From assembly GCF_000423205.1 (NCBI RefSeq), contig NZ_AUHN01000010.1, forward strand, positions 62,001 through 126,000: a stretch of DNA of 64,000 nucleotides. The letters run 5' to 3'. The position numbers and the translations under genes were made by a program. This document shows, piece after piece, positions 30,817 through 30,921 of the stretch. The notes under the pieces are model-generated. The model was not told the DNA's origin. It did no database searches and was given only the letters and a program-made list of their open reading frames with translations. The stretch's first letter is position 1. Every line of letters starts with the position of its first letter. Origin of the DNA: Jonesia quinghaiensis DSM 15701. GTDB lineage: Bacteria > Actinomycetota > Actinomycetes > Actinomycetales > Cellulomonadaceae.

Positions 30817-30900
30817 CGCAGAAATTATTCTGCGGGGACTGTGCCGGCACACACCGACCGCCGCGACGAGAGACCGGCTCTAAGCCTCGTCGCGGCACAG
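30817..30900 (-). promoter_or_regulatory. leuA attenuator structures
   Basis: On the minus strand the leader transcript can form gccgcgacgag/ctcgtcgcggc (30886-30896 with 30860-30870), or instead ctgtgccg/cggcacag (30893-30900 with 30839-30846). These share bases, so they exclude each other, and the first arm lies inside the leader peptide reading frame just after its Leu codons. A 7-bp hairpin cgcagaa/ttctgcg (30817-30834) follows, 26 bp from leuA, without a clear U-run; it could block transcription weakly or hide the ribosome site. Confidence 0.65.
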
Positions 30901-30921
30901 AAGAAGAAGGGTGACTTGCAT
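30880..30921 (-). CDS. leuL: Leu leader peptide
   Basis: Fourteen codons: ATG CAA GTC ACC CTT CTT CTT CTG TGC ... TAG, giving MQVTLLLLCRDEA. Four leucine codons in a row, three of them the same CTT, in a short frame 88 bp ahead of leuA are the mark of a transcription-attenuation leader. There is no strong ribosome site, so the peptide may be translated from a leaderless or short-leader message, as is usual in actinobacteria. Confidence 0.8.
   Translation of the reverse strand: MQVTLLLLCRDEA

Follow-up and report, generated by a model that had tools for sequence, protein, structure and literature searches.

Leader region upstream of leuA

The window analysed here, a stretch of 64,000 nucleotides from Jonesia quinghaiensis DSM 15701, contains on its minus strand a gene for 2-isopropylmalate synthase, preceded by a short leader ORF with four consecutive Leu codons and by several segments that can pair with one another in the RNA (Table 1). 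Matches to NF002991 and TIGR00970 agree with the initial annotation in naming the downstream gene leuA. The 14-codon frame MQVTLLLLCRDEA that had been read as the leader peptide is present with its stop codon and its Leu codons (ATG at 30921-30919, TAG at 30882-30880). ATG 30921 was rejected as the start of the leader because the layout conserved in relatives points to an in-frame GTG at 30933, located 7 nt 3' of TACAGT; ATG 30921 is an internal codon of the 17-codon leader ORF. The whole element spans positions 30933-30843 on the minus strand, upstream of leuA.

Table 1. Features of the leuA leader region, with positions numbered along the window.
Feature	Position	Strand	Basis
leuA, 2-isopropylmalate synthase	29031-30791	minus	NF002991 and TIGR00970, both above cut-off
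Probable weak Shine-Dalgarno (SD) AGGA near the leuA ATG	30794-30797	minus	sequence
Base stem, 3' strand ACAGAA, adjoining the weak SD	30801-30806	minus	predicted fold
Alternative helix, 3' strand CGGCACAG (partner CTGTGCCG, 30900-30893)	30839-30846	minus	exact repeat, 8 bp
Pseudoknot partner CCGGC	30843-30847	minus	covariation in alignment A2
Stem 1, 3' arm CTCGTCGCGGC	30860-30870	minus	exact inverted repeat
Pseudoknot strand GCCGG in the stem 1 loop	30874-30878	minus	alignment A2, columns 38-42
Leader peptide ORF, GTG start to TAG stop, 17 aa, VDSDMQVTLLLLCRDEA	30880-30933	minus	sequence and layout in relatives
Stem 1, 5' arm GCCGCGACGAG	30886-30896	minus	exact inverted repeat
Base stem, 5' strand UUCUGU, end of the Leu run	30897-30902	minus	predicted fold, pairs with ACAGAA
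Leu codons CTT CTT CTT CTG, four consecutive	30898-30909	minus	sequence
-10 box TACAGT of a putative leaderless promoter	30941-30946	minus	sequence and layout in relatives

Both inverted repeats reported earlier are exact in the window. The first, GCCGCGACGAG/CTCGTCGCGGC, forms stem 1 with 11 bp and a 15-nt loop, and the second, CTGTGCCG/CGGCACAG, has 8 bp; as had been claimed, the two folds exclude each other because both use positions 30896-30893. The pseudoknot formed by the loop of stem 1 comprises 5 bp in the window. No U-run is found 3' of the helices in the window leader, confirming what was noted for the final helix, and a classical transcription attenuator with an intrinsic terminator was rejected on this ground. 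A search of the whole window with Rfam covariance models returned tRNAs only, with no leader or T-box match, and a search of positions 30700-31100 relaxed to E ≤ 5 gave no relevant match; the Rfam leader and T-box families were rejected as the identity of the element, as neither the gathering nor the relaxed threshold gave a match. The Leu_leader of enterobacteria, which we take to be Rfam RF00512, has a Leu-run leader peptide before leuA and alternative folds; the window element differs from it in having no Rfam leader match, no intrinsic terminator and a pseudoknot instead.

Further repeats were observed in the region. A small hairpin, CGCAGAATAATTTCTGCG (30817-30834, minus strand), lies immediately 5' of the leuA SD region, and its strands could compete with the base stem. 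The inverted repeat CGTTGTACA/TGGACAACG (30933-30951, minus strand) lies over the -10 box and the leader start and is perhaps an operator; by eye it is not retained in the relatives inspected. A strong 21-nt inverted repeat (86%) at 31001-31047 separates the upstream gene from the leuA promoter and is perhaps the terminator of that gene. Two adjacent proteins encoded on the minus strand (31087-33123 and 33248-35158) have the LRV_2 domain (PF25591) in common, N-terminal in one and C-terminal in the other, and the second also contains DUF7937.

Relation to known leucine leaders

The Leu leader annotated before leuA is real and of a kind already published. The window element is a LEU element, a class that Seliverstov et al. 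(PMC1262725) named in 2005 and that lies in front of leuA in actinobacteria. In the part of that paper available here, the LEU element is described as a Leu-run leader peptide with a pseudoknot and with pairing between the Leu codons and the leuA ribosome-binding region, and a binding protein is proposed for it. The window element shares the position before leuA, the Leu-run leader peptide, the pseudoknot and the lack of a terminator. Pairing between Leu run and SD region is supported across relatives, and the window element differs in that its base stem is positioned just 5' of the weak SD, pairing beside AGGA and not with it. Comparison with leuL1 of Streptomyces lividans (PMC8079986, in part) suggested that both leaders are leaderless; both have MRFGLLLLSCRGEGL before leuA and lack a typical terminator, whereas the body of the leader sequence differs. 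Leader peptides of leuA are also reported in C. glutamicum (PMC4046766) and C. diphtheriae (PMC5784534), as stated in the available parts of these papers. For an actinobacterium, the element in the window is unremarkable. The interest lies in how the LEU element works: protein binding was the 2005 proposal, and codon reading is favoured here.

Conservation and covariation at leuA loci

The comparison used 110 leuA loci. Named records supplied 80 of them, and the other 30 are those that could be retrieved for the own genome and relatives, where the search listed 60 matches across 56 of 59 genomes. At 108 of the 110 loci the 10-bp stem 1 core was perfect (nine pairs in L076, absent in L046), and at 105 a start codon was found 6-7 nt 3' of TANNNT; these counts are not of independent events because some rows are near-identical (e.g. 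L006 and L032). The position of TANNNT 6-7 nt before the start indicates leaderless translation, and transcription would start at or adjoining the GTG of the leader ORF. Leu runs of at least three codons occur in 106 of the 108 readable leaders (L046, without the stem, and L051, cut by the contig end, were dropped), which is the conservation of Leu codons in relatives that the initial annotation had suggested looking for. A scan for stem 1 behind a run of branched-chain amino acid codons matched upstream of 107 of the 110 leuA loci and once in the coding background (327,000 nt, leuA coding sequence on both strands), so the leader before leuA exceeds chance. Judged from this sequence conservation, control of leuA by a leucine leader is strongly supported, with a start codon and a conserved second helix that differ from those first proposed.

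Alignment A2, comprising 41 leuA sequences from 92 references, gave 100% pairing for stem 1, where two pairs show changes in both partners, and 96.7% pairing for the loop pseudoknot, where three pairs do so. The covariation score of stem 1 and the pseudoknot was reached by 0 of 500 shuffles, which is a count and not a probability because the shuffle control keeps no phylogeny. The 8-bp alternative helix CTGTGCCG/CGGCACAG was 78.5% paired with weak covariation, and only its 4-bp GCCG/CGGC core is conserved. This pairing, first taken for the second helix, is present but poorly kept and was rejected as a conserved switch; the second helix that is conserved is the loop pseudoknot.

The Leu-run RNA pairs with the leuA SD region of its own species better than when swapped, a result supported across relatives: median duplex energies were -12.3 kcal/mol for native and -10.5 kcal/mol for swapped combinations (n = 108; L046 and L103 dropped), with an upstream control duplex at -7.35 kcal/mol for native and swapped alike.

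Copies of the element before other genes

Covariance model R1, scanned on a phylum sample, gave matches in 37 of 296 genomes, and absence of a match means little because only 15 candidates were scored per genome in this first look. Second copies precede leuC (L143, L144), leuB followed by ilvE (L147, L151, L152) and a gene with a LeuA_dimer domain (PF08502; L153); the product at L149, similar to that at L153, gave no Pfam match. Five weak R1 matches (L150, L154, L155, L160, L161) lie inside coding sequence and were rejected as looking like chance. No second copy was found in the own genome (G000), where R1 gave one match among the best 15 of 1415 candidates, and the stem/codon-run scan detected no element in the upstream regions of its leuB (L222) and leuC (L206).

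Among relatives, 50 of the 97 leuB matches were examined, with the element at 2 of 30 loci in one set and at 0 of 20 in the other. In the G052 family it was present at 14 of 30 leuB loci (30 of 35 matches examined), with two more by looser criteria, and in the G269 family at 2 of 30 (30 of 34 matches examined). The element was found at 2 of 30 leuC loci (30 of 96 matches) and at 4 of 30 loci of the LeuA_dimer gene (30 of 53 matches). The loop pairs with a downstream strand in these copies through helices of 6-10 bp with lineage-specific sequences, and loop helix length over 20 elements averaged 7.25 for native, 5.95 for swapped and 5.37 for shuffled strands. Covariation of stem 1 and the pseudoknot was also seen in a set of 13 leuB leaders that excluded L257, with the pseudoknot 96.1% paired.

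The element relatives before leuC, leuB-ilvE and the LeuA-dimerisation-domain gene in other genomes are new here and extend the LEU element to further branched-chain genes. No description of copies before these genes was found in the available part of PMC1262725, and titles and abstract openings of the literature indicated none of an element before leuB or ilvE.

In the G052 family (leuB loci L242-L265, about 1150-1300 in leuB orientation), 13 of the 14 loci with the element that were examined have a conserved small ORF between the leader element and leuB. This ORF is some 26 codons long (similar to MSEDAQAARQALQESMDLRDQGHTDD) and may be the first gene controlled by the element. A Leu/Val leader of the same architecture was observed at L302, L318, L324 and L327 before a gene related to the stand-alone LeuA allosteric (dimerisation) domain protein.

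Codon content of the runs

Analysis of the codon runs revealed 371 Leu, 5 Val and 4 Ile codons in leuA leaders (n = 108), 35 Leu, 20 Ile and 19 Val codons in leuB-ilvE leaders (n = 18; the looser leuB leaders L247 and L261 excluded) and 6 Leu and 11 Val codons in leaders of the LeuA_dimer gene (n = 5). Val or Ile occurs after the first run position in all 18 leuB-ilvE leaders, compared with 5 of 108 leuA leaders. The Leu/Val/Ile mixture was not selected by the scan, because the scan asked for any three of Leu, Ile or Val consecutively. IlvE serves all three branched-chain amino acids, and codon identity appears to follow the pathway product of the downstream gene.

These runs bear on the 2005 proposal that a regulatory protein binds the element (ML1624 orthologs) and that the Leu codons matter as pairing sequence only. 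It was put forward from phyletic patterns and S. coelicolor mutants (PMC1262725, available part), and we consider it improbable: the leuB-ilvE leaders keep stem and pseudoknot, yet their run is a mixed in-frame series of Leu, Val and Ile (18/18), as a codon sensor would have, and the leuA run shows synonymous variation at its second-last and third-last codons. Mixed runs at leuB-ilvE against near-pure Leu at leuA favour reading of the codons by the ribosome, and codons that follow the product are hard to reconcile with a run acting in base pairing alone. A constitutive element, setting basal leuA expression only, through re-initiation or mRNA stability and without leucine control, is still more improbable and is hardly to be expected when the amino acid identity of the run tracks the pathway product in other copies. 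The codon swaps in relatives amount to a natural experiment that renders the mechanism directly testable.

By a narrow preference, our analysis suggests that the LEU element exemplifies a modular RNA device, in which a leaderless sensor ORF is fused to a pseudoknotted hairpin hiding the next ribosome-binding site. The device would have been placed in Actinobacteria before leuA, leuC, leuB-ilvE and the stand-alone LeuA allosteric-domain gene, with sensor codons (Leu only, Leu/Val/Ile or Leu/Val) setting its specificity.

Predicted gating of the leuA SD by a ribosome on the leader

Accessibility of the SD site was calculated from pseudoknot-free folds of 104 leaders; the six of the 110 that were dropped are L046, L103 and four that lack the 6-7 nt layout. 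In free RNA the mean unpaired probability of the SD site was 0.26, and a ribosome placed on the first Leu codon, the last Leu codon or the stop codon gave 0.53, 0.38 and 0.31, respectively. Dinucleotide-shuffled leaders (n = 312) gave 0.41, 0.43 and 0.43 for free RNA and for the first and last Leu codons, and a stall on the first Leu codon is predicted to raise accessibility by 0.27 in native leaders, compared with 0.02 in shuffled ones. In the window, a ribosome on the first Leu codon raised the predicted value from 0.10 to 0.43 for AGGA and from 0.14 to 0.99 for ACAGAA. Two results count against a switch: a ribosome on the stop codon opens the window AGGA equally (0.43), and a stall on the last Leu codon lowers accessibility in 24 of the 104 leaders. 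Since the stop-codon ribosome also opens the window SD, a working switch requires rapid release of the ribosome, which the model assumes. These calculations are in line with the early doubt about a terminator and with the idea that control may act on translation of leuA, and regulation is most likely translational.

Overall, the LEU element of leuA is best explained as a leucine-codon-gated translational attenuator, with a probability of about 0.68. The analysis shows the parts of the element, how they are conserved, their covariation and the predicted gating; from there on we infer ribosome stalling, translational control and the direction of the response. When charged leucyl-tRNA is plentiful, the ribosome would clear the four Leu codons, terminate in the hairpin loop and depart, after which stem 1, the pseudoknot and the base stem, the last formed by the Leu-run RNA and the region adjoining the leuA ribosome-binding site, would close and leuA would be translated poorly. 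When leucine is scarce, the ribosome would stall on the Leu run, with a footprint over the base-stem strand and a large part of stem 1, so that the leuA start region would open and leuA be translated.

Transcription attenuation mediated by the ribosome but without an intrinsic terminator would use the same leader and folds, the folded state leading to Rho-dependent or pause-linked termination before leuA. Attenuator transcripts of leuA in C. glutamicum (PMC4046766, available part) hint at premature termination there and so speak for it and against a translational reading, and the lack of a typical terminator in S. lividans LeuL1 (PMC8079986, available part) fits it as well; however, the window leader has no U-run, and the conserved pairing includes the leuA SD region, which termination does not need, so this alternative appears unlikely. 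Also counting against the translational attenuator are the weak window SD with a base stem beside rather than on it, and a result in S. coelicolor described in the available part of PMC1262725 (citing its reference 22), where mutating the leader peptide of leuA had some effect, but one inconsistent with classical attenuation. In favour of the translational attenuator are the leaderless leuA leader peptide reported for S. lividans (PMC8079986) and the ribosome protection reported for the leuA leader peptide of Mycobacterium abscessus (PMC4974804), each in the part of the paper available.
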